Virus record (IMG/VR): IMGVR_UViG_3300043410_000599
Span: 1 to 44,707 of that record
Strand: one strand, 5' to 3'
Origin: a virus
DNA: 44,707 bases
The position numbers were made by a program, and so were the translations under genes. The notes under the pieces were generated by a model. That model was not told where the DNA came from. It made no database searches and saw only the letters and a program-made list of their open reading frames with translations. This document shows, one piece after another, positions 7,333 to 43,679 of this stretch; position 1 is the first letter of the stretch, and every line of letters starts with the position of its first letter.

Positions 7333-7855
7333 AGAAGATATGATTAAGCACCTTGATCAAGTAAATCAAGTGGTAGAAGAATACCTAAAGGGTAATGATC
7401 CAACACAGATTTCAAAGCAGTTAACTATTCCAAGACAAAGAGTTGTTGCCTATATCGATGAGTGGAAGGTAAGCGCATCAAATAATGCAATGATTCGTGC
7501 TCGTGCAAAAGAAGCACTGTCAGGCGCTGATGCACACTACAGCAAACTAATTTCAAAATCATATGAGGTAATTGATGAAGCCTCCATGACTAATAATCTT
7601 AGTGCAAAGACTGCTGCAATTAAACTAGTTATGGACATTGAGTCAAAAAGAATTGACATGCTACAAAAGGCTGGCCTACTTGAGAACAAAGAATTAGCAG
7701 ATGAAATGGTTGAGATAGAAAAAAGACAAGAGGTTCTTGTTGGAATTCTGAGAGACATTGCATCTTCCCATCCAGAAGTTCGTGATCTAATTATGCGTAG
7801 ACTATCTGACATATCAAAAGACAATGAAGTTATTACGGTGATTGCTGATGTTTGA
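7322..7855 (+). CDS. terS: terminase small subunit
   Basis: Protein of 177 aa from the ATG at 7322, which has GGAGG at 7311-7315. Upstream in-frame codons overlap DUF3310 and lack a ribosome site. An N-terminal helix-turn-helix (NDPTQISKQLTIPRQRVVAY) is followed by long helices (SAKTAAIKLVMDIESKRIDML) suited to oligomerisation, and the gene sits immediately before the large subunit with an 8-nt overlap. Small terminases recognise the packaging site and load the motor. Identification rests on architecture plus position. Confidence 0.8.
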   Translation: MSTEEDMIKHLDQVNQVVEEYLKGNDPTQISKQLTIPRQRVVAYIDEWKVSASNNAMIRARAKEALSGADAHYSKLISKSYEVIDEASMTNNLSAKTAAIKLVMDIESKRIDMLQKAGLLENKELADEMVEIEKRQEVLVGILRDIASSHPEVRDLIMRRLSDISKDNEVITVIADV

Positions 7856-9617
7856 TGACTTTCTGGAAGTACTTAAAGATAATAACTTTAAGGAAATGCC
7901 AGTAGATGCTAAGACATTTGTTGAAGGAGAAGGCTATCTTGGTCAGCCACCGCTATCAGATATTCAGTATGACATTGTTGAGGCTATGAGTCAGATCTAT
8001 AAATTAGAAGATGTTATAGAAATTTTAGGGGAAGTTGAGGGAACAAGATATTATAAGAAGTACACTAAGAATGAAGTTATCCTCCAATTGGGTAAGGGTT
8101 CTGGAAAAGATTTTACTTCTACTGTTGCTTGTGCTTACATCGTGTATAAGTTATTATGCCTTAAGGACCCAGCAAGATATTTCGGTAAACCCAGTGGGGA
8201 TGCCATAGATATTATCAATGTGGCTATTAACGCACAGCAGGCTAAGAATGTTTTCTTTAAAGGATTTAAAACAAAGATTGAAAAGTCCCCTTGGTTTGCT
8301 GGCAAGTATAATGCTAAGGCAGAATCCATTGAGTTTAATGATTCTATTACAGTTTATTCTGGTCACTCAGAGCGTGAATCACATGAGGGTTTGAACCTTA
8401 TTCTTGCAGTGCTTGATGAGATTTCTGGTTTTGCTCAGGAAGTTGGAACAGGTAATGAGCAGGGAAAGACTGCTGATAATATCTATAAAGCCTTCCGTGC
8501 ATCTGTAGACTCTCGTTTCCCAGATCTTGGTAAGGTAGCACTACTCTCATTCCCCCGTTACCCTGGAGACTTTATCTCACAAAGATATGATGATGTTATT
8601 GCTGAGAAAGAAGTTATCAACTACACTCATAAATTTATTATGAACCCAGATCTTCCAGAAGATGCAGATGGAAACTCTTTAGAAATTAACTGGGATGAAG
8701 ACACAATTGTTTCATACAAATATCCAGGAGTTTTTGCGTTAAAGAGACCAACATGGGTTGTAAACCCTACAAGAAAGATTGATGATTTTAAGTTAGCATT
8801 TTATACAGATCTTGGAGATGCTATGCAACGCTTTGCATGTGTTCCAACATACTCATCGGATGCATTCTTTAAGCAGATTGATAAGGTTAGATCATGTATG
8901 ACATTAAGAAACCCTTTAGATCAGCATAGAAGATTTGATGAAACATTTAAGCCTGACCCAGAAAAAGTTTATTATGTCCACGCTGACCTTGCACAAAGGC
9001 ATGACAAGTGTGCGGTAGCAATAGCGCATGTTGATAAGTGGGTAAACATTCAGGTAATCAAAGACTATCAACAGGTTGCTCCAGTAGTTGTTGTAGATGC
9101 CGTTGCTTGGTGGGAGCCAAAGGTAGAGGGTCCAGTAAACCTATCTGAAGTAAAGCAATGGATTCAAAACTTGCGTAGACAGGGATTCAATATTGGCATG
9201 GTTTCATTTGACCGTTGGCAGTCATTCGACATCCAGAATGAGTTGAAGCAGGTAGGAATGAGAACTGATACTGTTTCTGTTGCTAAAAAGCATTATGAAG
9301 ATATGGCAATGCTTGTATATGAGGAAAGACTTGCAATGCCAGCAATTGATCTTTTGTTTGAGGAACTCACAGAACTAAAGATTATGAAAAATAATAGAGT
9401 TGACCACCCAAGAAAATCTTCTAAGGACTTAGCAGATGCCGTGTGTGGTGCAATCTTTGGGGCTATATCTCATACTCCAAAAGATAACAATACTGAAATA
9501 GAGATTCATACATTTAGCGATAGGCCTAAAGTTGACACCCCTGTTTCAAATGTGATACAATATAAACCTATGCCAGATGATGTCAGAGATTATCTGGATA
9601 GATTCAACCTAATATAA
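7848..9617 (+). CDS. terL: terminase large subunit (ATPase and nuclease)
   Basis: Protein of 589 aa starting at ATG 7848; a TTG six bases earlier is possible but less likely. The N-terminal motor has Walker A GKGSGKD at residues 82-88 and Walker B LAVLDE around 187-191. The C-terminal RNase H-like nuclease shows Asp in VHADLAQRHD, Asp in VSFDRWQSFD and a final Asp in KDLADAV. It pumps DNA into the prohead and cuts it. A portal gene normally follows, but here a secreted-protein gene does, so the head genes lie elsewhere. A promoter is embedded near its 3' end. Confidence 0.96.
   Translation: MFDDFLEVLKDNNFKEMPVDAKTFVEGEGYLGQPPLSDIQYDIVEAMSQIYKLEDVIEILGEVEGTRYYKKYTKNEVILQLGKGSGKDFTSTVACAYIVYKLLCLKDPARYFGKPSGDAIDIINVAINAQQAKNVFFKGFKTKIEKSPWFAGKYNAKAESIEFNDSITVYSGHSERESHEGLNLILAVLDEISGFAQEVGTGNEQGKTADNIYKAFRASVDSRFPDLGKVALLSFPRYPGDFISQRYDDVIAEKEVINYTHKFIMNPDLPEDADGNSLEINWDEDTIVSYKYPGVFALKRPTWVVNPTRKIDDFKLAFYTDLGDAMQRFACVPTYSSDAFFKQIDKVRSCMTLRNPLDQHRRFDETFKPDPEKVYYVHADLAQRHDKCAVAIAHVDKWVNIQVIKDYQQVAPVVVVDAVAWWEPKVEGPVNLSEVKQWIQNLRRQGFNIGMVSFDRWQSFDIQNELKQVGMRTDTVSVAKKHYEDMAMLVYEERLAMPAIDLLFEELTELKIMKNNRVDHPRKSSKDLADAVCGAIFGAISHTPKDNNTEIEIHTFSDRPKVDTPVSNVIQYKPMPDDVRDYLDRFNLI
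9532..9561 (+). promoter_or_regulatory. sigma-70-like promoter inside terL 3' end
   Basis: TTGACA at 9532-9537 and TACAAT at 9556-9561, 18-nt spacer. It would give the signal-peptide protein gene its own transcript with a leader of about 67 nt. Confidence 0.6.
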
Positions 9618-9634: not shown

Positions 9635-10636
9635 ATGAATTCATTTAAGAAATCCGCCGTTGTCATCGCTGCAGCCTTGACTGGCTCAGTTCTTGCAATT
9701 CTTCCTGCACAGGCAGCATCAACTGCTCTCTCTGTAGGTGGATCGTCTGTATCAACAGGTACAGTTGCATCAAACCCAACAGTTCTTCCAGTTCCAGCAG
9801 ACAACTCAGTTGACTCTGCAGACGCACTGAAGATTGCTATTACAGGTCTTGATACAGGAACAGTAGTCACTGCATCAGCGACCAACGCATCAATCGTGCC
9901 AGCACTTGCAACAGTGTCAGCACCAGTTACTGCATCAGCAGGAACTTCAACACTTTCAATTAGCACAGGAACAGGCACAACTGCTGACTTCTATGTGTTT
10001 ACAAAGACAGTAAATCCAGGAACAATTGTAGTAACAGTTGGTGGAAACACAACAACTTACTATGTTAAGGGTTCAGCAGGAGCAGCATACAACCTTTCAG
10101 TTGTAGGTGCAGATACTGCAGCAATCTCAACAGTTTCAAAGGTTTACGCTAAGACAACAGATATTTTTGGAAACCCAGTTGTTACAACTACTCCAACAGT
10201 ATCAGCAATCAATGCAACACTTGGATCAGTTTCTGTATCTGATACAGCAACAGGTACATTTGTATTTGACCTAACAGCACCAGCAGTTGCTGGAACAGCA
10301 GCACTTTCAGTAGCAATTACAGCAACAGATGTTGCAGGTTTTGCTCCAGCAGTTAAGACTGTTACAAAGTTTGCTTCTGTTACAAATCCAGCAGATGCTC
10401 TTGCATCACTTAATGCACAACTTGCACAGGCTAAGGCAGATCTTGCTACAGCAGCAGCAGCGCTAGCAGCAGAGAAGGCAGCACATGCTGCTACTAAGAC
10501 TGCAGCAGATGCAGCAAGTGTAACTGCAAAGGCAGCAGCAGATGTTGCAACAGCAGCATACAAGGCAGAGTACAATGCTCTTGCTAAGAAGTGGAATGCT
10601 AAGAATCCAAAGGCAAAGGTTGCTCTTAAGAAGTAA
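9635..10636 (+). CDS. secreted Ala/Thr-rich surface protein
   Basis: Protein of 333 aa. A clear Sec signal peptide (basic KK, hydrophobic VVIAAALTGSVLAIL, cleavage after PAQA near residue 27) precedes Ser/Thr/Val-rich beta-sandwich-like sequence of the Ig or adhesin type. The last 90 residues are an Ala-rich coiled coil (LNAQLAQAKADLATAAAAL) ending with a basic tail, KKWNAKNPKAKVALKK. Basic tails after coiled coils occur in actinobacterial surface proteins. AAAGGA precedes the ATG. A signal peptide on a presumed phage protein implies export through the host during infection, perhaps to the envelope. Codon use is GCA/ACA-rich. It ends just before a strong terminator. Confidence 0.75.
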   Translation: MNSFKKSAVVIAAALTGSVLAILPAQAASTALSVGGSSVSTGTVASNPTVLPVPADNSVDSADALKIAITGLDTGTVVTASATNASIVPALATVSAPVTASAGTSTLSISTGTGTTADFYVFTKTVNPGTIVVTVGGNTTTYYVKGSAGAAYNLSVVGADTAAISTVSKVYAKTTDIFGNPVVTTTPTVSAINATLGSVSVSDTATGTFVFDLTAPAVAGTAALSVAITATDVAGFAPAVKTVTKFASVTNPADALASLNAQLAQAKADLATAAAALAAEKAAHAATKTAADAASVTAKAAADVATAAYKAEYNALAKKWNAKNPKAKVALKK

Positions 10637-10654
10637 CTTAATCCAACAACTAAG

Positions 10655-10685
10655 GGGGTTAGCCAAGTGCTAGCCCTCTTTTTTG
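10655..10685 (+). terminator. rho-independent terminator
   Basis: GGGTTAGC, 5-nt loop, GCTAGCCC (8 bp with one G-T pair) followed by CTCTTTTTT. Located 18 nt after the stop of the secreted protein. Confidence 0.85.
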
Positions 10686-10695
10686 TTTAATAAAA

Positions 10696-10704
10696 TGGTA
10701 TAAT
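10696..10704 (+). promoter_or_regulatory. extended -10 promoter (TGG-TATAAT)
   Basis: Consensus extended -10 directly after the terminator, 40 nt before the predicted coding start of the PA14 protein. The expected transcript begins at a small hairpin (TTAGAC-ATCC-GTCTAA, 10712-10727). Confidence 0.7.
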
Positions 10705-10744
10705 CATTCTATTAGACATCCGTCTAACTAAGGGGTGAAGGGAA

Positions 10745-12895
10745 ATAAAAAGATTAATACTAAGATCAGCATTTATAACAGCACTTTTAGCCCTATGGCT
10801 ATTGCTATTTCCACAGGATACAGCACATGCTGAAGAGATCACTACTGTCCAAACACCACCATCAGATACATCTACAGCAACAAGTTTAACGCCCACAGCC
10901 ATCATTGAGTCAGCACAGACTGCTATAACTCAGGCTGAAACAACCACGGCACAGATAGAGACCCAGGCAGAAGCCATTACAAGCCCTACAGAGACCATTA
11001 CAGCCACTATCACACAGGCTCAGGACTCTATCATACAGGCTCAAGCAGTAGTAGATAGTGCTACTGTGGCTTTGTCTCAGGTAGATGGTGCAACGGTGCT
11101 AGTTCAGGATGCCCAAGAAAATGTACAAATTGCCCAAATAGCAGTAGATTCACAAACAGCAACAGTTGAAATTAAATTAGACATTGTTGATTCTGCAACT
11201 GCAGTAGTTAATGCTAATACAACTCCTGGTTTGACCATGACTGTATATCAGGATCGTGGATACAACAATGCTCCTCCACAGGGTGCTGGAACTGTTGTTT
11301 CTGTAACTACTGATACTAATGGCATTAATGAGCAATGGGGTGGGTCTGGTCCTGCTAATACATACCCTGAAGATTTTCAGGTAAAGTGGGAGGGCCTATG
11401 GACACCACAATATACAGGAACACAATATGTTTATGCACCAGCAGATGACGGAGTACGACTCTACCTTGATGGAGAATTAGTAATTAATGATTGGTATGAC
11501 AAAGGTGGTGGAGGATCTACTGCTGATGTAATGACTACTGCTGGCGTATCTAAAATATTTGAAATGTGGTATTACGAAAATGGCGGAGGTGCAAATGTTG
11601 CTCTGTACAGATACACTGGCAATGGTTGGGAATTAATACCAGCAGCAGAGTTTTCTACAACCTCTGCAAGTCCAGAGCAGGTTGCTGCGCTAAACACAGC
11701 ACAAACAGATTTAGAGATTGCACAAGAAACCCTTGCCGTACTAGAAACCGATCTTGAAGTATCACAAGAAGATTTAGTAGAAGCCCAAACTAATTTAACA
11801 ACTGCAGAAAATAATTTGGTGTCTGCATTAATTGCAGTAGATGTTGCAGTTACAGTAATGAATAATAATGTAACAGCAGCACAAAATCTAGTTGTTTCAA
11901 CACTTGCTGCAGAAGAAGCAGAGAGAGCAAGAATTGCAGAAGAAGCAAGACAAGCAGAGATTGCTAGACAGGCAGCGATAGCAGCAGAGGCTGCAAGGGT
12001 TGCTGCACAGCAAGCATATGAAGCAGAGCAGGCAAGGATTGCTGCAGAACAAGCAAGAATTAAAGCAGAAGCAGAAGCCAAGGCAGCAGCAGAAGAGGCT
12101 GCAAGACTAGAGGCAGAAAGAATTGCTGCTGAAGAAGAAGCAAAAAGATTAGAAGCAGAGCGGATTGCTGCTGAAGAGGCTGCTAAAAAGGCTGAGGAAG
12201 AAGCAAAAGCAAAGGCAGAAGCAGAAGCAAAAGCATTAGCGGAGGCAGAGGCACAGGCTAAAGCAGAGGCAGAAAGATTAGCAGAGGAAGAAGCAAAGGC
12301 AAAGGCTGAGGCAGATGCCAAGGCAAAGGCAGAAGAGGAAGCAAAAGCATTAGAAGCAAAGAAAGCAGAAGAGGCAGCAAAAGCCAAGGCAGAAGAAGAA
12401 GCCTTAAAGAAGGCTGCTGAAGATGGCAAGTTAACTGAAGCACAAAAAAAAGCAGTAGTAGAAAATCTAGTAGCAAACTTACAACCAGGAGAATCTATAT
12501 CAGCAGCAGAAATTAAAGCATCTGGAATATCGTATTCAGATCTTCCACCATCAACTCCAGTTGAGGTTAGAACAGATGAAAATGGAAACGCATTAATTAT
12601 TACAGCAGAAGTTGCTGCACAGGTTGAGTTGGTTTCAGATCCAGCAGCATTAGTTGAAGAATTATTTACAGATCCAGGAGCAGCAATCGCAGCACTTGGA
12701 AGTATTGGAGCGGATATGACTCCAGAAGAAAGAGAAGAGGCAACCGATATGGTTGTAGCAACAGTAGTAGCAGCAGGTGCAGCACTTAATGCTGTAGGTG
12801 CAGCAACTGGTGGATCAGCACCAACAGGTGGTGGTTCATCTGGACCAAGTGGTGGAACAAATTCAGGCGGTTCAAGGAGGAATGAAAGATGGTAA
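10745..12895 (+). CDS. secreted PA14-domain coiled-coil protein, apparent ATA start
   Basis: Protein of about 716 aa. The open frame begins after a TGA at 10736. No ATG, GTG or TTG precedes the signal sequence (KRLILRSAFITALLALWLLL then cleavage near AHA-E); the first plausible initiation codon is ATA at 10745, 9 nt after AGGGG. A TTG at 10802 would delete the hydrophobic core. After an Ala/Thr/Gln-rich stretch, a PA14 carbohydrate-binding domain is recognisable (VYQDRGYN, WTPQYTGTQYVYAPADDGVR, LYLDGELVINDW). Then come about 230 residues of Ala/Glu/Lys-rich coiled coil of TolA type, and a Gly/Ser-rich, basic tail. Likely an envelope-spanning or surface glycan-binding protein. Export is inferred from the signal peptide. 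Confidence 0.75.
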   Translation: MKRLILRSAFITALLALWLLLFPQDTAHAEEITTVQTPPSDTSTATSLTPTAIIESAQTAITQAETTTAQIETQAEAITSPTETITATITQAQDSIIQAQAVVDSATVALSQVDGATVLVQDAQENVQIAQIAVDSQTATVEIKLDIVDSATAVVNANTTPGLTMTVYQDRGYNNAPPQGAGTVVSVTTDTNGINEQWGGSGPANTYPEDFQVKWEGLWTPQYTGTQYVYAPADDGVRLYLDGELVINDWYDKGGGGSTADVMTTAGVSKIFEMWYYENGGGANVALYRYTGNGWELIPAAEFSTTSASPEQVAALNTAQTDLEIAQETLAVLETDLEVSQEDLVEAQTNLTTAENNLVSALIAVDVAVTVMNNNVTAAQNLVVSTLAAEEAERARIAEEARQAEIARQAAIAAEAARVAAQQAYEAEQARIAAEQARIKAEAEAKAAAEEAARLEAERIAAEEEAKRLEAERIAAEEAAKKAEEEAKAKAEAEAKALAEAEAQAKAEAERLAEEEAKAKAEADAKAKAEEEAKALEAKKAEEAAKAKAEEEALKKAAEDGKLTEAQKKAVVENLVANLQPGESISAAEIKASGISYSDLPPSTPVEVRTDENGNALIITAEVAAQVELVSDPAALVEELFTDPGAAIAALGSIGADMTPEEREEATDMVVATVVAAGAALNAVGAATGGSAPTGGGSSGPSGGTNSGGSRRNERW

Positions 12896-13059
12896 AACTA
12901 TTAAAAGACCTATTTGATCAACAATGGACACTCCTAGGCATGTTTATCGCCTGGGTGGTTTTAGACGGTAGTGCTAAAACAGTTGTTGGTTATGGAATTA
13001 TTATTACATGTCTAACTTGGATATTAAGTTATCCAATTAGAAATAGAGAGGAGGACTAA
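12889..13059 (+). CDS. 56-aa membrane protein, holin-like candidate
   Basis: AGGAGG at 12875-12880 and a 7-nt overlap with the PA14 gene support the ATG. Two hydrophobic segments (LLGMFIAWVVLD and VVGYGIIITCLTWILSYP) and a charged tail (RNREED) give a small two-helix membrane protein. With the next gene it may form a holin pair, but no family match is certain. Confidence 0.65.
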   Translation: MVKLLKDLFDQQWTLLGMFIAWVVLDGSAKTVVGYGIIITCLTWILSYPIRNREED

Positions 13060-13061
13060 AT

Positions 13062-13361
13062 ATGAATAGCATAACAAATATTTGGAATATCCTTATGCGT
13101 ATTGTTGCTACCTTCGCAGCAAACGCACTAGCAGTTATTGGTGCAGGAGCAGTCGCAGGAGTTCCTGTAGCAAAAGCAATGGCAGTTGCTGGACTTAGCG
13201 CAGTTGCAGTAGTTGTTGAGAAGTTGTCTCGTGCATTTATGGATGACGGAAAACTTACAAGAGATGAGATTAATGCAGCATTTTCTACAACAGACAAAAA
13301 TGCAATAACTGTACAAGATGCAGCAGTAGAAACACGCAGAGCAAAATCAAAAACAGCATAA
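13062..13361 (+). CDS. putative holin, 99 aa
   Basis: Small membrane protein following the previous gene by 2 nt. A long Ala/Val/Gly-rich hydrophobic region (FAANALAVIGAGAVAGVPVAKAMAVAGLSAVAVVV) forms one or two helices, followed by a charged domain with LTRDEINAAFS. Size and topology resemble actinophage holins. The endolysin is 3.6 kb away, and a second holin-like protein exists at 21877-22173, so which one triggers lysis cannot be told. Confidence 0.55.
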   Translation: MNSITNIWNILMRIVATFAANALAVIGAGAVAGVPVAKAMAVAGLSAVAVVVEKLSRAFMDDGKLTRDEINAAFSTTDKNAITVQDAAVETRRAKSKTA

Positions 13362-13381
13362 TTACTCATATTTGAGGGTAT

Positions 13382-13410
13382 TTGACTCCCCCCTTAAGTG
13401 ATGGTATACT
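13382..13410 (+). promoter_or_regulatory. sigma-70 promoter TTGACT-N17-TATACT (extended -10)
   Basis: TTGACT at 13382-13387, TGG-TATACT ending at 13410. The preceding GGGTATTTGACT is identical to the one before the Hsp20 promoter at 22202, so the two promoters are related. The transcript leader contains a CCCC/GGGG hairpin. Confidence 0.85.
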
Positions 13411-13462
13411 AGATATACCCCATCTTAGAGGGGGATTCAGCATACTACTCGATGGGATTAAC

Positions 13463-15109
13463 ATGGCTAAGTCACGCTCACTAGTGTTTAAACTATGTGA
13501 TGAGTATTTCAATAAAACATTAGAGTATGACGCAATCGCATCTACCTATGCCAATCTAACTGACCAAAATATTCATTGGAACGACTATAGTTTTCACAAG
13601 GTAGATCCATTTATCCGTATAGCAAAATCATATCACAAGAAAATATCTGAGGCAAAGTGCATAGATTCACATGATGAGTTAGCCAAAAAGATTATCCTTA
13701 GAGACATTCAGTCTTATATAGATGATGCAGAAGACTTTTACCCATATGCAGACTTTGGGTCTGTTTATTCTGAGCCACAGGCTATCTTTGAAGTATTTGA
13801 TGTAATGCCACGCAAAACAAGAAGGGATGTTCTTGACATTATCAAAAGAATGGAAAAGATTCCTTCAGCCTTTGCTGAGTGGACTACTGCACTAAACGAT
13901 GTTGCAAGACTTAATGTTGTTAATGCAAAAGATCGTGTGAGATTTTTAGTAGAGATACTAGATAATTATTCATCTGGATCATTTCAAGAGTTTGCAAAGA
14001 AAATAGATGCAACAGATAAACGATTGATAAAGGCTGCAAGAGTTGCAGATGCTTCTTGTGAACAACTTTCAGCATGGCTGGAGGTAAAGTACATGCCAAT
14101 GGCAAAAGACAGTCCTGCTGTTGGCAAAGAAAGATATGTTAAGAATGTAAAAGATTATTCAGGACTTGATATTGACCCATTAAGACTTTATCAGTGGGGC
14201 ATTGACGAACTTAACCGTATTAATGTAGATATGTGGCAACTATCAAAGCAATGGGGGGAGTTTAATAGTTTAACTGAAGTTCGTGACTACCTAAACAACA
14301 ACCCTAAGTACTACATTGATGGACGAGATAACTTTAAATCATTTCTTGAGGGTGTAACAAAACAAGCCGTTAAAGAACTAGGCGGTAAAGTGTTTACAAT
14401 CCCAGTTGCAATGAAGCAATGTGATGTAGAACTAGATGACGATACAATTGATGAGTCGCCATATTATAAATCACCTTCAGATGATATGACACGCCCAGGA
14501 AAAACTGTGTATCCAACTCTGGGTCGCACACGATTCACAACATGGGAGAACTATTCTACATGGTTCCATGAATCAGTTCCTGGACACCATATGCAGATTG
14601 CTTATTCTATTTTAAATAAGGAAACACTTACTCGTTACCAGCGTGAACACGCATGGAATTCAGGGTACGGTGAAGGATGGGCATTATATTCAGAACGCCT
14701 AATGGATGAACTTGGATACTTTGAAGACCCTGGATATAAAATGGGGTACTTAATGTGCCAAGCAATGAGAGCAGCAAGACTGGTAGTAGACATTGGACTA
14801 CATCTAGAATATACTGATCCATATGATGGTGATGTTTGGAACTTTGATAATGCCGTTAAATTTATGGAAGAGTTTGCTCTTCTTAATCATGATTATGCTG
14901 TTAGTGAAGTAAAGCGCTACCTATCTTGGGCAGGCCAGGCAATCACATATAAGATTGGCGAGAAGGTTTGGCTTGATGCTCGTGAAGATGCAAAGAAGCG
15001 CCTTGGCGATAAGTTTGACCTTAAGAAATTTCACAACTATGCGCTTAAACTTGGTCCAATGGGGCTTGATCTTTTGCAAGATGAATTAGCAAAATGGAAC
15101 GGTAAGTAG
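13463..15109 (+). CDS. DUF885 family metallopeptidase-like protein
   Basis: Protein of 548 aa from ATG 13463. Upstream in-frame codons overlap the promoter, so a longer start is unlikely. The DUF885 signature is complete: WFHESVPGHHMQ (H369, E370, H375, H376), REHAWNSGYGEGWALYSERLMDELGY, then the AMRAARLVVDIGLH helix. This family has a gluzincin-like His/Glu site and is common in cellular bacteria. It has no signal peptide, so it acts inside the cell or after lysis. Length matches the cellular family and no frame damage is visible. A phage copy is unusual; peptidase activity is inferred from the family. Confidence 0.9.
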   Translation: MAKSRSLVFKLCDEYFNKTLEYDAIASTYANLTDQNIHWNDYSFHKVDPFIRIAKSYHKKISEAKCIDSHDELAKKIILRDIQSYIDDAEDFYPYADFGSVYSEPQAIFEVFDVMPRKTRRDVLDIIKRMEKIPSAFAEWTTALNDVARLNVVNAKDRVRFLVEILDNYSSGSFQEFAKKIDATDKRLIKAARVADASCEQLSAWLEVKYMPMAKDSPAVGKERYVKNVKDYSGLDIDPLRLYQWGIDELNRINVDMWQLSKQWGEFNSLTEVRDYLNNNPKYYIDGRDNFKSFLEGVTKQAVKELGGKVFTIPVAMKQCDVELDDDTIDESPYYKSPSDDMTRPGKTVYPTLGRTRFTTWENYSTWFHESVPGHHMQIAYSILNKETLTRYQREHAWNSGYGEGWALYSERLMDELGYFEDPGYKMGYLMCQAMRAARLVVDIGLHLEYTDPYDGDVWNFDNAVKFMEEFALLNHDYAVSEVKRYLSWAGQAITYKIGEKVWLDAREDAKKRLGDKFDLKKFHNYALKLGPMGLDLLQDELAKWNGK

Positions 15110-15111
15110 AC

Positions 15112-15140
15112 TTGACAAGCAATATCTGAAAGGGTATACT
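15112..15140 (+). promoter_or_regulatory. consensus promoter TTGACA-N17-TATACT, leaderless start
   Basis: TTGACA at 15112-15117 and TATACT at 15135-15140. The next ATG is at 15147, 6 nt after the -10, so transcription should begin at or next to the start codon. Confidence 0.88.
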
Positions 15141-15146
15141 TATAAT

Positions 15147-15341
15147 ATGAACGAAGAGTTATCTATAGAAGAACAAGAGTTTGGTATCTGGCTACTCAAT
15201 GGCGTTGAGCGAGGATGGATCACAGAACCATATTGCGATACGCATGATGGTGGATACCAGTTTATGAGTGAAGAAGAGATTGAAGAGTGGGACCAAGGTG
15301 GCGACCCATGTTGTCATGTCGTAAGACTGATGATTTCGTAA
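15147..15341 (+). CDS. small acidic Cys/His protein, 64 aa
   Basis: Conserved-looking pattern EPYCDTHDGG, an acidic helix (MSEEEIEEWDQGGD) and PCCHVVRL. I recall similar short proteins in actinobacteria and their phages, with CATHDG and DPCIHVLR motifs. Cys and His residues could bind a metal. Start is leaderless under a consensus promoter. It precedes the protease gene by 15 nt and probably shares its transcript. Confidence 0.75.
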   Translation: MNEELSIEEQEFGIWLLNGVERGWITEPYCDTHDGGYQFMSEEEIEEWDQGGDPCCHVVRLMIS

Positions 15342-15356
15342 TAGAAAAGGAATAAA

Positions 15357-16313
15357 ATGAAGAAAGTAATTCTAGCAGTATTGGCATCAACACTTGCATT
15401 TTCAGTGGTAAGTCCAGCACAGGCAGAAGATCAGAAGGTTCTAGCAATTATTGATACTGCTATTAATTCTGATCTTGTACCATCTGTAGTATATGAGGCA
15501 TGCTTTACTACTTCAAAGTCTACAGGTTGCTCTAATGGGCAAACATTTATGGAAGGCAAGGGAGCAGCCAAGTCTGCATTCCCACTATCCCTAAACAGTG
15601 TTACCTATCACGGAGATAGTATGGTAAAGGCTGCACTTGCAGTTAATCCAAATGTTAAGATTGTTTTTGTACGAGTTGCAGATGTAACATCTACTGGAAA
15701 CAGTTCTATCTTTAATAACTCACTTATTTCTGCAATTGATTGGGTTTCAAAGAACGCTCAAAAGCATAGCATTGATGCTGTATCTATTAGTCTTTCTGGA
15801 GTAAACACTACTCTAGATGTTGCCAACTCTACTACTAAAGTAGTTTCACTTTCATCTAAGTGTACAGATACTTCTACCACTCAGTCTGTTGCATTTTTAG
15901 GTTCTCAAAATATCCCAACATTTGCAGCAACAGGAAATAATGGATCTAAAACTATTGTAGGATTTCCAGCATGTATTCCTGGCGTAATCGGTGTCGGGGC
16001 ATTGTCATCTCAGACCGATGGCGCAGACAAGTTGGGTGAGACTGCAACTAATCGTGGGCCTGGACTAGATGTTGTTGCTATTGGTAGCATTAATATTACA
16101 AAGTACAACGGTTCACCAACTACACTATCTGGTTCATCAGGAGCAAATGTTGTTACAGCATCTACATATGTTGGCAAGAATGCATACACCAACTTTGGTG
16201 ATTATGTAGCAGGGCTGTCAAAGACTTCTGTCAAGTTCCTTGATTACAAGGATCCTAAAACAAATCTCCTTGTTTGGGAACCAGCAAGAGTTTTGCCTCT
16301 TGGATCAAACTAG
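15357..16313 (+). CDS. secreted subtilisin-like (S8) serine protease
   Basis: Protein of 318 aa. Signal peptide: MKKVILAVLASTLAFSVV then SPAQA-E, cleavage about residue 23. The catalytic triad is readable: Asp33 in AIIDTAI, His85 in YHGDSM, oxyanion Asn near 194 in AATGNNG, Ser261 in LSGSSGANV, which replaces the usual GTSMAAP. VSISLSG matches the substrate-binding strand. Four Cys in the mature part could pair outside the cell. The catalytic domain follows the signal with little or no propeptide. It would be exported and might trim host surface proteins or assist exit. RBS AAAAGGA precedes the ATG. Confidence 0.85.
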   Translation: MKKVILAVLASTLAFSVVSPAQAEDQKVLAIIDTAINSDLVPSVVYEACFTTSKSTGCSNGQTFMEGKGAAKSAFPLSLNSVTYHGDSMVKAALAVNPNVKIVFVRVADVTSTGNSSIFNNSLISAIDWVSKNAQKHSIDAVSISLSGVNTTLDVANSTTKVVSLSSKCTDTSTTQSVAFLGSQNIPTFAATGNNGSKTIVGFPACIPGVIGVGALSSQTDGADKLGETATNRGPGLDVVAIGSINITKYNGSPTTLSGSSGANVVTASTYVGKNAYTNFGDYVAGLSKTSVKFLDYKDPKTNLLVWEPARVLPLGSN

Positions 16314-16326: not shown

Positions 16327-16351
16327 CCTAGGCATGACTAAAAACTGCCTA
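16327..16351 (+). ncRNA. hairpin element copy 1 (CCTAGGCA...TGCCTA)
   Basis: CCT, then stem TAGGCA/TGCCTA around the 11-nt loop TGACTAAAAAC. It lies between convergent genes, so it might act as a bidirectional terminator. Its loop differs by two bases from the copy at 22760, while the stem shows a paired G-C/A-T exchange, implying a selected structure. Confidence 0.5.
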
Positions 16352-16906
16352 CTTTAATTTTATAAAACTTGTCATAGAGTATCTTGTACCAGACGATACT
16401 TCTTTTACTCCATGCCTATATGCTTCGTGTGCTGGGTGCAAAACCAAACTGTATGCCTCTGGTTTAAACTCTAGCCCAATGTTTGGGTAAAATATTTCGC
16501 CACCTAGATAATCATCATTTAGGTATAAAACAACTCCATACTTAAACTTTGGACCAAGGCCAGAGTCGCTATGAGTTTTCATTGCTTGCCCTACTACTGA
16601 GCGGTAGATTGTGTTAAATCCAGTGTATTCATATATATCTTTGTTAAGTATAGAATTAATCTCTTTTTTTATCTTGTCAAAAAGGGTAGATACGGCTTGT
16701 CTTTTTTCTTCATCAAAGCCAGAGCAATTATTTAAAAGCAAGATGCGATCTTCCCATTCGTTGTGCTCATCTCTATCTGTATAGTTATAGTTAGCCCACT
16801 CCTCAGCACTTGCAGTCTTTGCTAAATTTACAAGGTCAGTTGCTTGATCTGCATGTATAAAGTTTTTGATTACAAAAATATTGGGATCTGGATTTTCAAT
16901 TATCAT
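16349..16906 (-). CDS. 2OG-Fe(II) oxygenase (prolyl 4-hydroxylase-like)
   Basis: Protein of 185 aa from ATG 16906; an upstream in-frame ATG at 16924 lies on top of the -10 box and is rejected. The iron site is HSD in MKTHSDSGLG (H-x-D), with the distal His in AYRHGVKEV and the 2-oxoglutarate Arg in SSGTRYSMTSF. GVVLYLNDDYLGGEIFYP is the typical core strand pair. Such enzymes hydroxylate protein side chains or nucleobases and are frequent accessory genes in aquatic phages. It is the only leftward gene in the first 25 kb, with its own promoter. Substrate unknown. Confidence 0.9.
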   Translation of the reverse strand: MIIENPDPNIFVIKNFIHADQATDLVNLAKTASAEEWANYNYTDRDEHNEWEDRILLLNNCSGFDEEKRQAVSTLFDKIKKEINSILNKDIYEYTGFNTIYRSVVGQAMKTHSDSGLGPKFKYGVVLYLNDDYLGGEIFYPNIGLEFKPEAYSLVLHPAHEAYRHGVKEVSSGTRYSMTSFIKLK

Positions 16907-16912
16907 ATATAT

Positions 16913-16918
16913 AGTATA
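16913..16918 (-). promoter_or_regulatory. -10 box TATACT, leaderless start for oxygenase
   Basis: Reverse-strand TATACT ends 6 nt before ATG 16906. No good -35 is visible on this strand. It is back to back with the consensus promoter at 16935. Confidence 0.6.
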
Positions 16919-16934
16919 CAGCAAAACTATATAC

Positions 16935-16989: not shown

Positions 16990-17775
16990 ATGGCAGCAAA
17001 AGGAACAAGAGAACTTCTTCTAGAGATCATTCAGAAGGAAGTTGGAACCGTAGAAGGTCCAAAGGACAACGAAACAAAGTACGGAGCATATACAAAGGCA
17101 AACTTCTTGCCATGGTGTGGATCATTCGTAAACTGGTCAGCAAATCAGGCTGGTGTTAAGGTCCCGAATACTGTTTATACACCAGCAGGTGTAGCAGCAT
17201 TTAAGAAGGCTGGCAAGTGGGTTCCTGTAAAGGGAAACAAGCCTCAAGCAGGTTGGGTTGTTTACTTTGACTTCCCTGGTGGTCGTGACATTGACCATGT
17301 TGGTTGGATTTTAAAGGATAACGGAGACGGTACTGCTTGGTGTATTGAAGGAAATACTTCTGCTGATGGCAAGAAGGGTAGCCAGTCAAATGGTGGAGAA
17401 TGTGCAAAGAAACTTCGTGCATATGGTCCAAATAAAAAGAACCTTCCAGTATTTATTGCAGGGTATGGAGTAGTTGACTACCCCGATGCACCTGTAACAG
17501 AGGTAAAGTCATTAGAAGAAAAGAAGGTAGCACTTGCTGAAGTTGCAAAATCACAAGGTGTTGAAGTTCCACCAGTTAAACTATTTAAGGCAATTAAAAA
17601 GGGTTCAAAGGGTCAGGCTGTTAAAAATGTTCAGTCTCTACTTAAAATTAATGCAGACGGTGAGTTTGGTCCAGGAACTGAAAAGGCTGTTAAGGCTTTC
17701 CAAACAAAAGAAAAGATCAAGCCAACGGGAATTGTTGACGAAGAGACTTTCCGCAGATTAAAGGGAGTTAAATAA
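16990..17775 (+). CDS. endolysin: CHAP amidase/peptidase with PG-binding domain
   Basis: Protein of 261 aa starting at ATG 16990 behind AAAGGAGG (16975-16982). Residues 5-160 form a CHAP domain: Cys43 in PWCGSFVNW, His103 in DIDHVGW, and Glu/Asn in IEGNTS about 120-122. A linker rich in Lys/Glu/Val leads to a peptidoglycan-binding 1 domain near 195-259 (KGSKGQAVKNVQSLL, DGEFGPGTEKAVKAFQ, VDEETF). It cleaves host peptidoglycan at lysis. No signal peptide, so release needs a holin. Next gene starts by TAATG overlap. Confidence 0.93.
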   Translation: MAAKGTRELLLEIIQKEVGTVEGPKDNETKYGAYTKANFLPWCGSFVNWSANQAGVKVPNTVYTPAGVAAFKKAGKWVPVKGNKPQAGWVVYFDFPGGRDIDHVGWILKDNGDGTAWCIEGNTSADGKKGSQSNGGECAKKLRAYGPNKKNLPVFIAGYGVVDYPDAPVTEVKSLEEKKVALAEVAKSQGVEVPPVKLFKAIKKGSKGQAVKNVQSLLKINADGEFGPGTEKAVKAFQTKEKIKPTGIVDEETFRRLKGVK

Positions 17776-25515: not shown

Positions 25516-25590
25516 TGGTAGCCCCAACGGGAATCGAACCCGTCTTGCCAGATTGAAAATCTGAAGTCCTAACCGATAGACGATGGAGCC
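25516..25590 (-). tRNA. tRNA-Glu (TTC), CCA encoded
   Basis: Cloverleaf on the minus strand: acceptor GGCTCCA/TGGGGCT, anticodon loop TTTTCAA giving TTC, T-arm with GTTCGATTC. A3' CCA follows the discriminator, the only gene-encoded CCA seen in the array. Confidence 0.95.
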
Positions 25591-25594
25591 ATTG

Positions 25595-25667
25595 CTGGGG
25601 ATGCAGGCCTCGATCCTGCGACTTGCGAATTAACAGTTCGCCACTCTACCAACTGAGTTAATCCCCA
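25595..25667 (-). tRNA. tRNA-Asn (GTT)
   Basis: Acceptor TGGGGAT/ATCCCCA, D-arm ACTC/GAGT, anticodon stem GCGAA/TTCGC with loop CTGTTAA. T-loop is ATCGAGG rather than the usual TTCGAAT-type. Ends in CAA, not CCA. Confidence 0.92.
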
Positions 25668-25701
25668 CTGCATTAAAAGTATAGCATATTAAGTTGTTTT
25701 G

Positions 25702-25773
25702 CGTCCCCGATAGGATTCGAACCTATGGCCTACACCTTAGAAGGGTGTCACTCTTCCGCTGAGTTACGGAGAC
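25702..25773 (-). tRNA. tRNA-Arg (TCT)
   Basis: Acceptor GTCTCCG/CGGGGAC, anticodon stem ACACC/GGTGT with loop CTTCTAA, T-arm ATAGG-TTCGAAT-CCTAT. Reads AGA, a codon common in these AT-rich genes. Confidence 0.95.
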
Positions 25774-25777
25774 TTAG

Positions 25778-25851
25778 TACAACAGGTAGGACTTGAACCT
25801 ACGATAACCGAATTATGAGTTCGGGGCCTTGACCAACTTGGCTACTGTTGC
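25778..25851 (-). tRNA. tRNA-Met (CAT), elongator-like or Ile2
   Basis: Acceptor GCAACAG/CTGTTGT, anticodon stem CCGAA/TTCGG with loop CTCATAA, A73. It lacks the three G-C pairs of an initiator anticodon stem. A lysidine-modified Ile tRNA reading ATA cannot be excluded. Confidence 0.93.
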
Positions 25852-25893
25852 TTATATACTAAGTATATCCCATCGCTATTCAATTGTCAATTG

Positions 25894-25964
25894 CTTCTCC
25901 CCTAGGACTCGAACCTAGATTGCTGGTGCCAAAAACCAGAGTCCTGCCATTGGACGAAGGAGAA
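25894..25964 (-). tRNA. tRNA-Gln (TTG)
   Basis: Acceptor TTCTCCT/GGGAGAA, anticodon stem CTGGT/ACCAG with loop TTTTGGC, T-arm CTAGG-TTCGAGT-CCTAG. A degenerate copy of the recurrent hairpin lies just 5' of it. Confidence 0.95.
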
Positions 25965-25968
25965 TCAT

Positions 25969-25996
25969 GAGCCTTTTTTACATCTGCATACTCAGG
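25969..25996 (-). ncRNA. degenerate hairpin element before tRNA-Gln
   Basis: Reverse strand keeps the 5' CCTGAG, a TAAAA run and a 3' GGCTC, but only a three-base-pair GAG/CTC stem is left. Placed 4 nt before the tRNA-Gln 5' end, the same position as the Asp and Trp copies. Confidence 0.3.
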
Positions 25997-26040
25997 CAGG
26001 GCTTAAAGTGTAGACTCATCCATGGTAATCTACTACTTTG

Positions 26041-26120
26041 TCCGCCATCTTGGAATCGAACCAAGCATGCCATAAGCGGGGGATTTACAGTCCCCTGTCC
26101 CACCTTGGAACATATGACGG
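26041..26120 (-). tRNA. tRNA-Tyr (GTA)
   Basis: 80 nt with long variable arm. Acceptor CCGTCAT/ATGGCGG, anticodon stem GGGGA/TCCCC with loop CTGTAAA, A73, T-arm CTTGG-TTCGATT-CCAAG. Confidence 0.94.
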
Positions 26121-26125
26121 AAGAG

Positions 26126-26212
26126 CGGAAGATATAGGATTCGAACCTATGGTAAGTTTTACCCTACGATCAGTTAGCAACCGATTGCTTTAGACCACTC
26201 AGCCAATCTTCC
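26126..26212 (-). tRNA. tRNA-Ser (GCT)
   Basis: 87 nt class II tRNA. Acceptor GGAAGAT/ATCTTCC, anticodon stem ATCGG/CTGAT with loop TTGCTAA, long variable arm with GGGTAAAACTTACC, T-arm ATAGG-TTCGAAT-CCTAT, G73. Confidence 0.95.
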
Positions 26213-26217
26213 ATGAG

Positions 26218-26328
26218 GGCGTATCCTACTGCCAACAGGTCCAGTGTAGTGTGCACTCAGGGACTGGGTTGCTGTTGGGCCCTACCACGACTGTACTAGA
26301 CGCTATCTAGCCTTCCATCGGATACGCC
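26218..26328 (-). ncRNA. 111-nt structured non-coding element in tRNA array
   Basis: Its ends pair over 9 bp (GGCGTATCC/GGATACGCC). Inside, CCAACAG/CTGTTGG encloses CCAGT/ACTGG, and a second arm is CTAGA-TAGCG-TCTAG, making a three-way RNA. There is no T-loop, so it is not a tRNA, and no frame of useful length crosses it. Strand is taken from the flanking tRNAs. It has the size and placement of a processed small RNA. No known family recognised. Confidence 0.6.
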
Positions 26329-26332
26329 TTCG

Positions 26333-26406
26333 TGCTTCATGTAAGACTCGAACTTACAACATCATGATCCTAAGTCATGTGCCTCTACCAATTGGGCCAA
26401 TGAAGC
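26333..26406 (-). tRNA. tRNA-Leu (TAG), short variable loop
   Basis: Acceptor GCTTCAT/ATGAAGC, A73, anticodon stem CATGA/TCATG with loop CTTAGGA (TAG, then G37). The variable region is only 5 nt, so this is a class I tRNA with a leucine anticodon, unlike normal class II leucine tRNAs. Confidence 0.88.
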
Positions 26407-26581
26407 ATGTAAGCAGCAGATGACTAATCCGCCCCTACCGACTCTACACTAGAAATCCTACGAGTAGTAGCAACCATGGCCAATCTAGGCACTGCGCCAA
26501 GGTTAGTGGCGTTTGCTGGCTTTCGTCCAGTTCCTACACCATTATGACACTAATGGTAGCGAGTGTATAGTCACTACACTG
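26407..26581 (-). ncRNA. 175-nt structured non-coding element between tRNAs
   Basis: No coding frame. Reverse-strand hairpins: AGTGTA/TACACT, ACCATTA/TAATGGT, CTGG/CCAG, CGCCA/TGGCG, and GCGGAT/ATCTGC. It begins directly at the 3' end of tRNA-Trp and ends at the 5' end of tRNA-Leu, so RNase P/Z processing would release it. Too small for GOLLD or ROOL RNAs. No family recognised. Confidence 0.5.
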
Positions 26582-26652
26582 CAGAGTCTCTAGGAGTCGA
26601 ACCTAGGCTTACCGCTTTGGAGACGGTAGTGCTTCCGTAACACTTAGACCCT
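26582..26652 (-). tRNA. tRNA-Trp (CCA), copy 1
   Basis: Acceptor AGGGTCT/AGACTCT, anticodon stem ACCGT/GCGGT with loop CTCCAAA, T-arm CTAGG-TTCGACT-CCTAG, G73. A second tRNA-Trp is at 44372-44442. Confidence 0.94.
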
Positions 26653-26656
26653 AAAT

Positions 26657-26678
26657 ACCTAACGCACTAGTCGTTAGG
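26657..26678. other. 7-bp hairpin between tRNA genes
   Basis: CCTAACG, 7-nt loop, CGTTAGG. No T-run follows on either strand, so it is more likely a processing or spacing structure than a terminator. Confidence 0.35.
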
Positions 26679-26698
26679 GTGGTTATTTAATTATACAG

Positions 26699-26771
26699 TA
26701 CCCAAAGTGGGATTCGAACCCACGCTGTGTAAATTTTAAATCTACTGCCTCTACCGCTGGGCTATTTGGGC
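26699..26771 (-). tRNA. tRNA-Leu (TAA), short variable loop
   Basis: Acceptor GCCCAAA/TTTGGGT, A73, anticodon stem GTAGA/TTTAC with loop TTTAAAA (TAA), variable loop 5 nt, T-arm GTGGG-TTCGAAT-CCCAC. Second class I tRNA with a leucine anticodon; it would read TTA. Confidence 0.88.
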
Positions 26772-29965: not shown

Positions 29966-30898
29966 TTACTTCGCAATCACTGTAGTTGCTGAGTTACCGC
30001 AAGGTGTTGTATAGACTGTTACGCCCTTTTCAATACCCTTTGTAACTACCTGCTGCCATACCTGCATACATACAGACTGCATCTCTGAGGCTGTCATGCC
30101 ACCAGCAGCAGCAGCAGAGCGCTTTAGACCCTGTGCTTCAATAACACGACGCTCTGCTTCAATAGTAGCAGTTTTCTTTGCTTCTTCTGCAATGCGGGTT
30201 GCCTGTTGCTGTGAAGCATACTGTGAGATTGTTGCTGCTGTCTTCTCATCGGGCTCTACAGAACGAAGATTAATATCTTCAATTGTAATTCCATACTTAA
30301 TCAACTGCTGGTCAAGTTGCAACTTAATTGCTTCTGTAGTCTTAACACGATCATTAAGAGCATCTAGGTTTCCTGTAAGAGAATAAACCTGCCCTACAGC
30401 CTGTCGTAGATTCTTGACTACAATATCTTGGCTAATACGGTCATCATCACCAGTACGAACTTGAAGGTACAACTGCTTTGCCTTAGAAGACTCTACACGC
30501 CAACGAGCAGCAATCTCAACAGTCATCTGTCCTGCATCAGCGGTACGAGCAAGAATCTTATCATTACCTGATAGTTCAATTGTAACTGGACGAGTAGGAT
30601 ATGTTTCAACTGTTACCCAAGGTGCAACAAAATGAACTCCTGAGCGTAAAGGATCAGATACCTGACCAAATGCTACTGGTACTGCAACCTCTGTTGCTTT
30701 CACGATTGTAAATGTTGAAAAGAATGTTGCAATGAAAGCAATTGCAATCAATACAGATGTAGTTACCCAAGCAATTCGCTTTGGGTTAATTTGATCCCCA
30801 TACTCTGTTTCTTTCTTAGTTGTCTTAGTTTTAAGTGCTACTACTAATGAAATAACTGCAGCAATAAATAAAACTGCCAAAATACCTGTCTTAAACAT
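29966..30898 (-). CDS. SPFH / band-7 (stomatin-prohibitin) membrane protein
   Basis: Protein of 310 aa. Two N-terminal transmembrane helices (ILAVLFIAAVISLVVAL and VLIAIAFIATFFSTFTIV) precede the SPFH domain: VPVAFGQVSDPLRSGVHFVAPW, QMTVEIAARWRVESSKA, INLRSVEPDEKTAATIS. A long Ala/Glu/Arg helix (RIAEEAKKTATIEAERRVIEAQG) drives oligomerisation. Related proteins scaffold membrane microdomains or control proteases such as FtsH/HflKC. Directly followed upstream by RtcB with no gap. Phage copies are uncommon outside large phages. Role here unknown. Confidence 0.93.
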   Translation of the reverse strand: MFKTGILAVLFIAAVISLVVALKTKTTKKETEYGDQINPKRIAWVTTSVLIAIAFIATFFSTFTIVKATEVAVPVAFGQVSDPLRSGVHFVAPWVTVETYPTRPVTIELSGNDKILARTADAGQMTVEIAARWRVESSKAKQLYLQVRTGDDDRISQDIVVKNLRQAVGQVYSLTGNLDALNDRVKTTEAIKLQLDQQLIKYGITIEDINLRSVEPDEKTAATISQYASQQQATRIAEEAKKTATIEAERRVIEAQGLKRSAAAAGGMTASEMQSVCMQVWQQVVTKGIEKGVTVYTTPCGNSATTVIAK

Positions 30899-32065
30899 TT
30901 AATCTCCCTTTACGTTAATAATTTGTTTGAATGTGTGCTTTACTTTAACTAATTCTACAGCATCTTGCATTACTGTGTCAATAGGCTTGTATGCTCCAGG
31001 ATGTTCATCAAGGAATGCTGAAGAATGTGACCATTCAATACCCTGCATTTTTTCCTCAAGGTCTTCCATCGTAAATGTCTTACGAGCAGAACCACGAGAA
31101 TGCTGACGACCTGCACCATGTGGAGCAGAATTAAAAGACATTGGGTTTCCAAGTCCTTCAACAACATATGACAAATCACCCATTGAGCCAGGGATCAAAC
31201 CAAGTTGTCCAGCCTTAGCAGAGATAGCACCCTTACGAGTAATCCAAAGTTTTTCACCAAAGTGCTCTTCTTGCTGAGTAAAGTTATGATGACAGTTAAC
31301 CTCTTCAAGTACATCAAACTCTCCAGCATGATACTTAAATGCAGCCTTAACACGCTTCATCATTACTTCACGATTCATCATTGCAAATATTTGTGCCCAG
31401 TTCATCTGAGCAATATACTCATTAAACTCTGGGGTGCCTTCAACAAGGTATGCCAAATCTGAATCAGGAAGTATAGTACCGATATCGGAACAATAGTTCT
31501 GTGCAACCTTAATATGCTTAGATGCAATTTTGTTTCCAATACCACGAGAACCAGAGTGAAGGAATAGCCAAACATATCCATCTTCATCCACTGTTACTTC
31601 AATAAAGTGGTTTCCAGAACCAAGTGATCCAAGTTGCACACGCCAATTCTTATCTAATTCATCTGGGTTAAATCCTGCATCACGAGCATACACTTGAAGC
31701 ATTGCTACTTCATCTTGTGCATCATCCTTAATACGATTATTATACTTACCAGCAGACAATGGAATTTGTGATTGAATTGATTCACGAATACCCTGCTTGT
31801 TTAATTCAGGAAGATTCTCAATCTTGTGTGAAGTCTTTACAGCCATCATTCCACAGCCAATGTCTACTCCAACACATGCAGGCATGATAGCACCCTTTGT
31901 AGGGACTACAGAGCCTACTGTAGAGCCACGACCAAAGTGAACATCAGGCATCAATGCAAGATGGGGGTATACAAAAGGCATAGAAGAAGTATTCTTAGCC
32001 TGATTCAAAGCCTCATCTTCTACAATAGAAGCCCAATTAATTAGTTTATCTGTTACTTTATTCAT
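30899..32065 (-). CDS. rtcB: RtcB RNA ligase
   Basis: Protein of 388 aa. RtcB signatures: PDVHFGRG, CVGVDIGCGM (metal ligands D68, C71), GSLGSGNHFIEV (His153), HSGSRGIGN, NCHHNF and the guanylylated His in PHGAGRQHSR (H316). RtcB joins 2',3'-cyclic phosphate to 5'-OH RNA ends using GTP and Mn2+. In phages it could repair tRNAs cut by host anticodon nucleases, in line with the tRNA array 4 kb away. All catalytic residues appear present. Overlaps the upstream gene by 8 nt; SPFH follows directly. Confidence 0.96.
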   Translation of the reverse strand: MNKVTDKLINWASIVEDEALNQAKNTSSMPFVYPHLALMPDVHFGRGSTVGSVVPTKGAIMPACVGVDIGCGMMAVKTSHKIENLPELNKQGIRESIQSQIPLSAGKYNNRIKDDAQDEVAMLQVYARDAGFNPDELDKNWRVQLGSLGSGNHFIEVTVDEDGYVWLFLHSGSRGIGNKIASKHIKVAQNYCSDIGTILPDSDLAYLVEGTPEFNEYIAQMNWAQIFAMMNREVMMKRVKAAFKYHAGEFDVLEEVNCHHNFTQQEEHFGEKLWITRKGAISAKAGQLGLIPGSMGDLSYVVEGLGNPMSFNSAPHGAGRQHSRGSARKTFTMEDLEEKMQGIEWSHSSAFLDEHPGAYKPIDTVMQDAVELVKVKHTFKQIINVKGD

Positions 32066-42390: not shown

Positions 42391-42485
42391 GTCTTCTTAA
42401 AGTTATCCACAGGAAATCTCATGTGATTTAGGTCACAGGCCACGTCCCCGCATTTTTATGCATTGCAGTGCATATTTATTAATTG

Positions 42486-42559
42486 CGATCCGTACGGGAC
42501 TTGAACCCGTGACCTCCACCGTGACAGGGTGGCGAACTAACCAACTATTCTAACGGACC
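42486..42559 (-). tRNA. tRNA-Asp (GTC)
   Basis: Acceptor GGTCCGT/ACGGATC, anticodon stem CCACC/GGTGG with loop CTGTCAC, T-arm ACGGG-TTCAAGT-CCCGT, G73. It lies apart from the main array, with its own extended -10 promoter and a hairpin leader. Confidence 0.95.
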
Positions 42560-42564
42560 TTGCG

Positions 42565-42588
42565 AAGCAGTTTTATATCGTGCTCAGG
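42565..42588 (-). ncRNA. hairpin element copy 3, leader of tRNA-Asp
   Basis: Reverse strand CCTGAGCA, loop CGATATAAAAC, TGCTT (one G-T pair), ending 5 nt before the tRNA. Expected transcription start is at about 42590, so the hairpin would form the very 5' end of the precursor. Confidence 0.55.
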
Positions 42589-42596
42589 ATATTTTA

Positions 42597-42605
42597 ATTA
42601 TACCA
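42597..42605 (-). promoter_or_regulatory. extended -10 promoter for tRNA-Asp
   Basis: Reverse-strand TGG-TATAAT at the 3' end of the DUF932 gene. No clear -35. Confidence 0.65.
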
Positions 42606-43614: not shown

Positions 43615-43650
43615 AGGGGATACCTCTTTCATTTTGTTGTTGATAATATA

Positions 43651-43679
43651 AGTATACACACACCCACCGACAAATGCAA
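43651..43679 (-). promoter_or_regulatory. promoter TTGCAT-N17-TATACT
   Basis: Reverse strand -35 at 43674-43679, -10 at 43651-43656. The 36-nt leader ends GAAAGAGGTATCCCCT-ATG, nearly the same as the leader of the gene at 43873-44301. Confidence 0.75.

Follow-up and report, generated by a model that had tools for sequence, protein, structure and literature searches.

Genes of the block

The window, by which we mean the whole 44,707-base stretch analysed here, is a complete IMG/VR record. In it the gene for the terminase large subunit (terL, 7842–9617, plus strand) forms the left border of a block at 9635–16313, whose genes all lie on the plus strand. The initial annotation had described this block as three genes with Sec signal peptides, two membrane proteins and a DUF885 peptidase, and had taken the set of three to point to deliberate remodelling of the infected cell's surface. 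The three signal-peptide genes (g1, g2 and g6) were recovered with a heuristic scan, g2 only when it is translated from an ATA start, and the two small membrane proteins (g3 and g4) were confirmed. The scan passed 2.3% of shuffled N-termini and six of the 83 window genes; the signal peptides of g1 and g6 are clear, and the remaining four genes that passed resemble membrane proteins rather than secreted ones (including a DUF2061 and a Band_7 protein). Complete signal peptides with n, h and c regions recur among the relatives of g1, g2 and g6.

g1 (9635–10636) encodes a predicted secreted protein of 333 aa, with a signal peptide at about residues 1–27 (9635–9715). Its AlphaFold model (pLDDT 86) consists of two Ig-like beta domains, a 72-residue helix and a basic C-terminus, AKKWNAKNPKAKVALKK. 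No usable PHROG or Pfam assignment was obtained for g1, and the nearest solved structures are the Ig-like domains of invasin, InvD, FdeC and the S-layer protein SbsC (Foldseek E 7e-8 to 2e-4). A terminator-like GC hairpin with a T run can be read from the sequence 3' of g1 (10653–10683, plus strand).

g2 (10745–12895) was described as a PA14/coiled-coil protein, and both elements are present: the PA14 domain, at about 11225–11506, scores well above the Pfam cut-off (2.3e-9; 37.6 bits against 24), and an Ala/Glu/Lys coiled coil spans about 11850–12395. PA14 is carried by 18 of 28 g2 members. A signal peptide at 10745–10831 (heuristic, and dependent on the ATA start) is combined with a C-terminal transmembrane segment (12749–12808) and the basic tail RRNERW, as would be expected of an exported, membrane-anchored protein. 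Among 97 orthologues, nearly all of the intact ones finish in the same way, with a hydrophobic stretch and basic tail that by sequence form a membrane anchor. The AlphaFold model of the C-terminal domain was dropped from the fold search (pLDDT 65).

g3 (12889–13059), for a 56-aa membrane protein, starts 7 nt within the end of g2, and in 96 of 96 cases the g2 stop and the g3 ATG either overlap or lie no more than 2 nt apart. g4 (13062–13361) encodes a 99-aa, two-helix, holin-like protein that matches the holin family phrog_443 (5.4e-7), the r1t holin (0.024, below the cut-off) and also phrog_26427, which is named as a nuclease. The next gene, g5 (13463–15109), does encode a DUF885 metallopeptidase-like protein (Pfam 3.3e-114). 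From the ATG at 13463 it has no evident signal peptide, and its presence in only 4 of 162 loci makes it an accessory and rules it out as a member of the conserved set. In the sequence it has a leader of its own (13415–13465), where a TATACT-like box can be read with a CCCC...GGGG hairpin behind it. Between g4 and g6 lies g5b (15147–15341), for a conserved 64-aa protein found in 134 of 162 loci; its conservation nearly equals that of the module.

The S8 protease assignment of g6 (15357–16313; signal peptide about 15357–15425) proved correct by profile. The window protein itself is missed by Pfam, PF00082 is matched by 22 of 28 relatives, and a profile built from the 28 relatives matches PDB subtilisins at 7e-19. 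The catalytic D, H and S and the oxyanion N (D33, H85, S261 and N194) show no change in 97 of 97 distinct sequences, nor do two cysteines, and on these grounds g6 is, by sequence, a member of the subtilase family. Downstream lies a plus-strand endolysin gene (g8, 16990–17775; CHAP and PG_binding_1 domains, with no evident signal peptide), and in the window a 2OG-Fe(II) oxygenase gene on the minus strand (16349–16924) stands between g6 and the endolysin.

The start codon and leader of g2

Read from its first ordinary start codon (TTG, 10802), g2 has no signal peptide. Read from the ATA at 10745–10747, which stands behind the Shine-Dalgarno sequence AAGGGG (together 10730–10747, plus strand; assigned from the sequence and from orthologue starts), the protein opens (M)KRLILRSAFITALLALWLLLFPQDTAHA and carries a textbook signal peptide, MKRLILRSAFITALLALWLLLFPQDTAHA, where the first residue is read as M. 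A TATAAT −10 box for the g2-g3-g4 operon lies at 10699–10704 on the plus strand, and of 72 distinct 5' regions, 71 have such a box no more than 75 nt from the start. Shine-Dalgarno-guided starts in these 72 regions were ATT (30), ATA (18), ATC (3), TTG (17) and ATG (4), so that 51 of them use AUU, AUA or AUC (ATH). Of the 51 ATH cases, 45 lack any in-frame ATG, GTG or TTG from the upstream stop as far as the hydrophobic core, and four have a stop codon immediately 5' of the ATH codon. The same caller assigned ATG starts to 92% of g1, 87% of g6 and 95% of g3 genes. Its ATH calls elsewhere came to about 5–7% for g1, g3 and g6 and to 20 of 86 for g4; the g4 calls are probably spurious, because ATH codons within the first helix may outscore the true start.

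Between the TATAAT box and the Shine-Dalgarno sequence lies a predicted hairpin, in the window TTAGAC(ATCC)GTCTAA (10712–10727, plus strand), which was identified by stem scoring across leaders. Because a MAFFT alignment of the leaders left the hairpin arms out of register, we scored each sequence separately against shuffles and against other leaders. A stem of at least 5 bp was present in 83% of 59 distinct g2 leaders, compared with 17% of shuffles and 10% of the leaders of 90 other TATAAT-led genes, and the inner arms of the g2 stems make up 20 different pairs. For whole leaders the thermodynamic z-scores averaged −0.9, a value that is only mildly negative. One practical consequence is that gene callers restricted to ATG, GTG and TTG would miss the AUU/AUA/AUC start of g2, whereby the signal peptide would be lost and the system hidden.

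Conservation, genome context and likely hosts

The gene set was sought in related phages and recurs in hundreds of IMG/VR relatives: it is a conserved module and not a one-off. There are 392 viral relatives of g1 in IMG/VR and at least 538 of g6. Since loci were retrieved through g1 or g6, and many are related or duplicate, counts of co-occurrence are conditional on that retrieval. With this proviso, terL, g3, g4, g5b, g6, g8 and g9 occur in all 23 loci that were found through g6 and span 17 kb or more, and g1 in 21 of the 23, in the order terL-g1-g2-g3-g4-g5b-g6-g8-g9. There is also a second arrangement, in which g2-g3-g4 are separated from g6-g5b-g1 by several kb. Nine relatives of 98–116 kb, like the window, carry one subtilase gene per record.

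The window terminase is 53% identical to those of Streptomyces phages of the Stanwilliamsviridae, and the DnaE, MazG, RecA, Cas4-type exonuclease and RuvC-like genes that lie 5' of terL in the window precede it there as well. Two Stanwilliamsviridae that resemble the window in terminase and in the gene order 5' of it lack the block 3' of terL; HNH endonuclease, hypothetical and tRNA genes follow instead. Several relatives of the window measure 113–116 kb, and one record of 116,064 bases has a part of the capsid gene at each end, the pattern of a circularly permuted genome; for these reasons the window is probably a fragment of an actinophage genome of about 116 kb. Elsewhere in the window are twelve tRNA genes (25516–26771 and 42485–44442) and, on the minus strand, genes for a Band_7/SPFH protein (29966–30898) and an RtcB RNA ligase (30899–32065).

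The hosts appear to be actinobacteria. Low G+C content, the freshwater literature and homologues in actinobacterial genomes of 0.9–2.2 Mb lead us to infer that they belong to the Nanopelagicales, and the phages carrying the module would then probably have hosts that rank among the most abundant bacteria of lakes. As a host set we used 201 genomes of the order to which an actinobacterial MAG carrying a g1 homologue belongs. g1-like proteins are encoded in three of the 201, with the full architecture in two, where they lie within ordinary bacterial neighbourhoods. Stand-alone g6-like subtilases of about 300 aa are encoded in about ten; in a genome of 1.43 Mb that forms a single contig, the gene lies in a region of surface/secreted genes. 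Because homologues of g1 and g6 occur in surface or secreted contexts of the hosts, the proteins of the block would suit that envelope. A search of the 201 genomes for the g2 anchor, run without a positive control, returned no copies. A large Ig-like secreted protein in one host genome (G007) is only suggestive of a protein coat on the hosts; at L092 (3344–6067) of G007 a 907-aa, Ala/Thr-rich secreted protein is encoded, which has a helix at its C-terminus and a basic tail and is a candidate for a surface-layer-like protein of the host group. Among the isolated phages searched we found no relatives of g1 and only a weak Acinetobacter phage match for g6.

The subtilase changes faster than its neighbours. 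In pairs of loci with 80–99.5% g1 identity, median identity was 60% for g6, compared with about 90% for g3/g4 and about 84% for g1. The window and its nearest relative (L002) share 95% identity in g1 and 29% in g6, and L052 and L063 share 99% and 48%, respectively. Between these two the window gene (15357–16313) is replaced by a divergent allele (L002, 15691–16503), the other block genes being 75–95% identical. The subtilases of L012, L017, L033, L034, L052 and L061 are extended at the C-terminus by an Ala-rich helical stretch that ends in LNG. In a midpoint-rooted tree the host subtilases are scattered among several phage clades, which suggests that exchange of the gene between hosts and phages has been old and repeated.

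Candidate roles at the infected-cell surface

The initial proposal is borne out in part. A deliberate exported surface module is well supported by the conservation and synteny of the block, the intact protease site, the g2 anchor and the distance from the capsid gene; membership of the DUF885 gene does not stand. The initial annotation named superinfection exclusion, receptor shedding or aggregation as possible functions, but the operon with holin-like g3/g4 near the endolysin gene points at least as much to disruption of the envelope at the lysis stage. We favor the possibility, at a probability of roughly 0.4, that in a large clade of freshwater actinophages the block serves as an exported module for remodelling the envelope and is tied to the lysis cassette, and that its job is most likely a late one that aids the release of progeny. 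Our reasons for preferring a lysis-stage role are that g2 is coupled to holin-like genes and that an endolysin gene lies nearby; the presence of g8 in every one of the long g6-anchored loci also counts for such a role, as do the invariance of the g6 active site, the anchor of g2 and the distance from the capsid gene. The absence of the block 3' of terL in the two Stanwilliamsviridae and the surface or secreted contexts of g1 and g6 homologues in likely hosts are counted on the same side. Counted against it are the second arrangement, which places g1 and g6 several kb from g2-g3-g4, and the rapid replacement of g6, which is as compatible with a host-facing arms race as with a lysis enzyme.

In the working model g1, g2 and g6 would be exported by the host Sec system. 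g1 would be secreted, and its helix and basic tail would probably keep it attached to the wall; the C-terminal anchor would fix g2 in the membrane, so that its coiled coil and, in this phage, its sugar-binding PA14 domain are displayed outside. g2 heads an operon with two membrane proteins, one of them holin-like, and its synthesis would be held down by the hairpin leader and the weak AUU/AUA/AUC (or UUG) start; translational coupling to g2 would probably limit synthesis of g3 and g4 as well. g6, as a secreted subtilase, would cut cell-surface proteins and so loosen the protein coat while g2, g3 and g4 act at the membrane, as holins and endolysin open membrane and wall and the progeny are freed. 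The sequences themselves establish the genes, the signal peptides (heuristically), the g2 anchor, the protease residues, the synteny, the operon structure and the conservation of start codon and leader; the time of expression, the target proteins of g6 and the role in release are the parts of this model that we infer. We are slightly more reserved, and clearly short of even odds, about its fullest form, namely that the Ig-like protein, the anchored fibre and the subtilase make up a new Sec-exported surface-remodelling machine, throttled by the AUU/AUA/AUC start and the hairpin, that would act before or at lysis. A controlled rebuilding or stripping of the infected cell's surface by these phages is probable.

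The main rival to a role in lysis is superinfection exclusion or receptor destruction, where g6 would cut the receptor or other surface proteins, g1 and g2 would cover or replace them, and other phages could no longer adsorb. We consider this possible and distinctly less probable than the lysis-tied module. All three proteins would be surface-bound, g1 resembles surface proteins of the hosts, and quick swaps of g6 alleles are what would be expected where a locus faces variable receptors or competitors; set against this, g2 is coupled to holin-like genes, the block borders on the endolysin, and known exclusion proteins are mostly small single genes. Unlikely, in our estimation, is the idea that g1 and g2 make infected cells adhere to other cells or particles, or alter how grazers handle them, since it leaves both the protease and the coupling to holin-like genes unexplained; the PA14 domain, present in many g2 members, and the Ig-like adhesin fold would suit such a function, and interactions of freshwater phages with grazers have been suggested (PMC6802176).

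It is marginally less likely again that g6 serves mainly to mature g1 and/or g2 into a self-contained surface structure instead of cutting host proteins: the co-conservation of g1, g2-g4 and g6 would be consistent with this, yet g1 and g3/g4 stay in place where g6 has diverged or been replaced, and this speaks against a close pairing of enzyme and substrate. We give least credence to the possibility that these are decoration or tail proteins of the virion that use, or merely resemble proteins with, signal peptides. Ig-like domains are common on virions and g1 follows terL, but in the nine long relatives the block lies about 40–60 kb from the capsid gene and hence outside a head-tail module, related Streptomyces phages have their structural genes elsewhere, the signal peptides recurring in relatives are complete, and g2 ends in a membrane anchor.

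To our knowledge Sec-exported enzymes are rare in phage genomes, and here a secreted protease with an intact active site has been kept across hundreds of phages. If it is true that g6 strips host surface proteins, the view of how single-membrane, protein-coated bacteria are lysed, or of exclusion in these hosts, would change. We found no description of the module in the open-licence papers searched, and neither the combination of genes in a phage module nor the conserved AUU/AUA/AUC start of g2 was found there; such a module has a fair chance of deserving a category of its own.

Comparison with known systems

In gene content there is a parallel with the lysis cassettes of actinophages and other phages of Gram-positive bacteria (r1t-type holins, phrog_443), with which the block shares two small membrane proteins and a CHAP/PG-binding endolysin that likewise lacks an evident signal peptide. 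Unlike those cassettes, it is headed by an exported, anchored coiled-coil protein and adds a secreted protease and an Ig-like protein. In how it might work, g2 can be compared with the spanins of Gram-negative phages, which act outside the membrane at lysis and in which an anchored coiled-coil protein is also encoded with holins. g2 differs in its signal peptide and C-terminal anchor, its PA14 domain, its size (550–985 aa) and hosts without evidence of an outer membrane. Identity with spanins was rejected, as no second, lipoprotein-like partner was seen in the block and the hosts appear to be actinobacterial. With phage exclusion proteins exported to the cell surface the block has in common that it is phage-coded and exported and that its site of action would be the host surface; it differs in being a conserved multi-gene set with a protease.

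Taken singly, g6 shares with peptidase S8 (PF00082) the fold and active site by sequence (D, H, oxyanion N and S) and predicted secretion, and differs from typical members in being phage-encoded, about 300 aa long and apparently without a separate pro-domain. g1 has tandem Ig-like domains in common with the bacterial adhesins and S-layer proteins invasin, InvD, FdeC and SbsC; TM-scores are low (0.19–0.36), so the likeness is one of fold only, and g1 adds the 72-residue helix and basic tail.

There is precedent for the start codon of g2. In Staphylococcus aureus infC (AUA), cvfC1 (AUU) and ccpN (AUA) have non-canonical starts, and AUU or AUA starts with a strong Shine-Dalgarno sequence give about 10–30% of AUG expression (PMC13009471). 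In Streptomyces, sigR is reported to have a GTC start that is repressed by IF3 (PMC5472188). g2 shares with these cases a conserved weak start codon with a strong Shine-Dalgarno sequence. By analogy, synthesis of g2 and of the coupled g3 and g4 would most naturally be low and tuned, and g2 would offer a clear example from nature of a phage operon controlled by a weak start. What sets it apart from these cases is that g2 is a phage gene for a surface protein, that it heads a holin-like operon and has a leader hairpin, and that the arrangement is found in dozens of phages.
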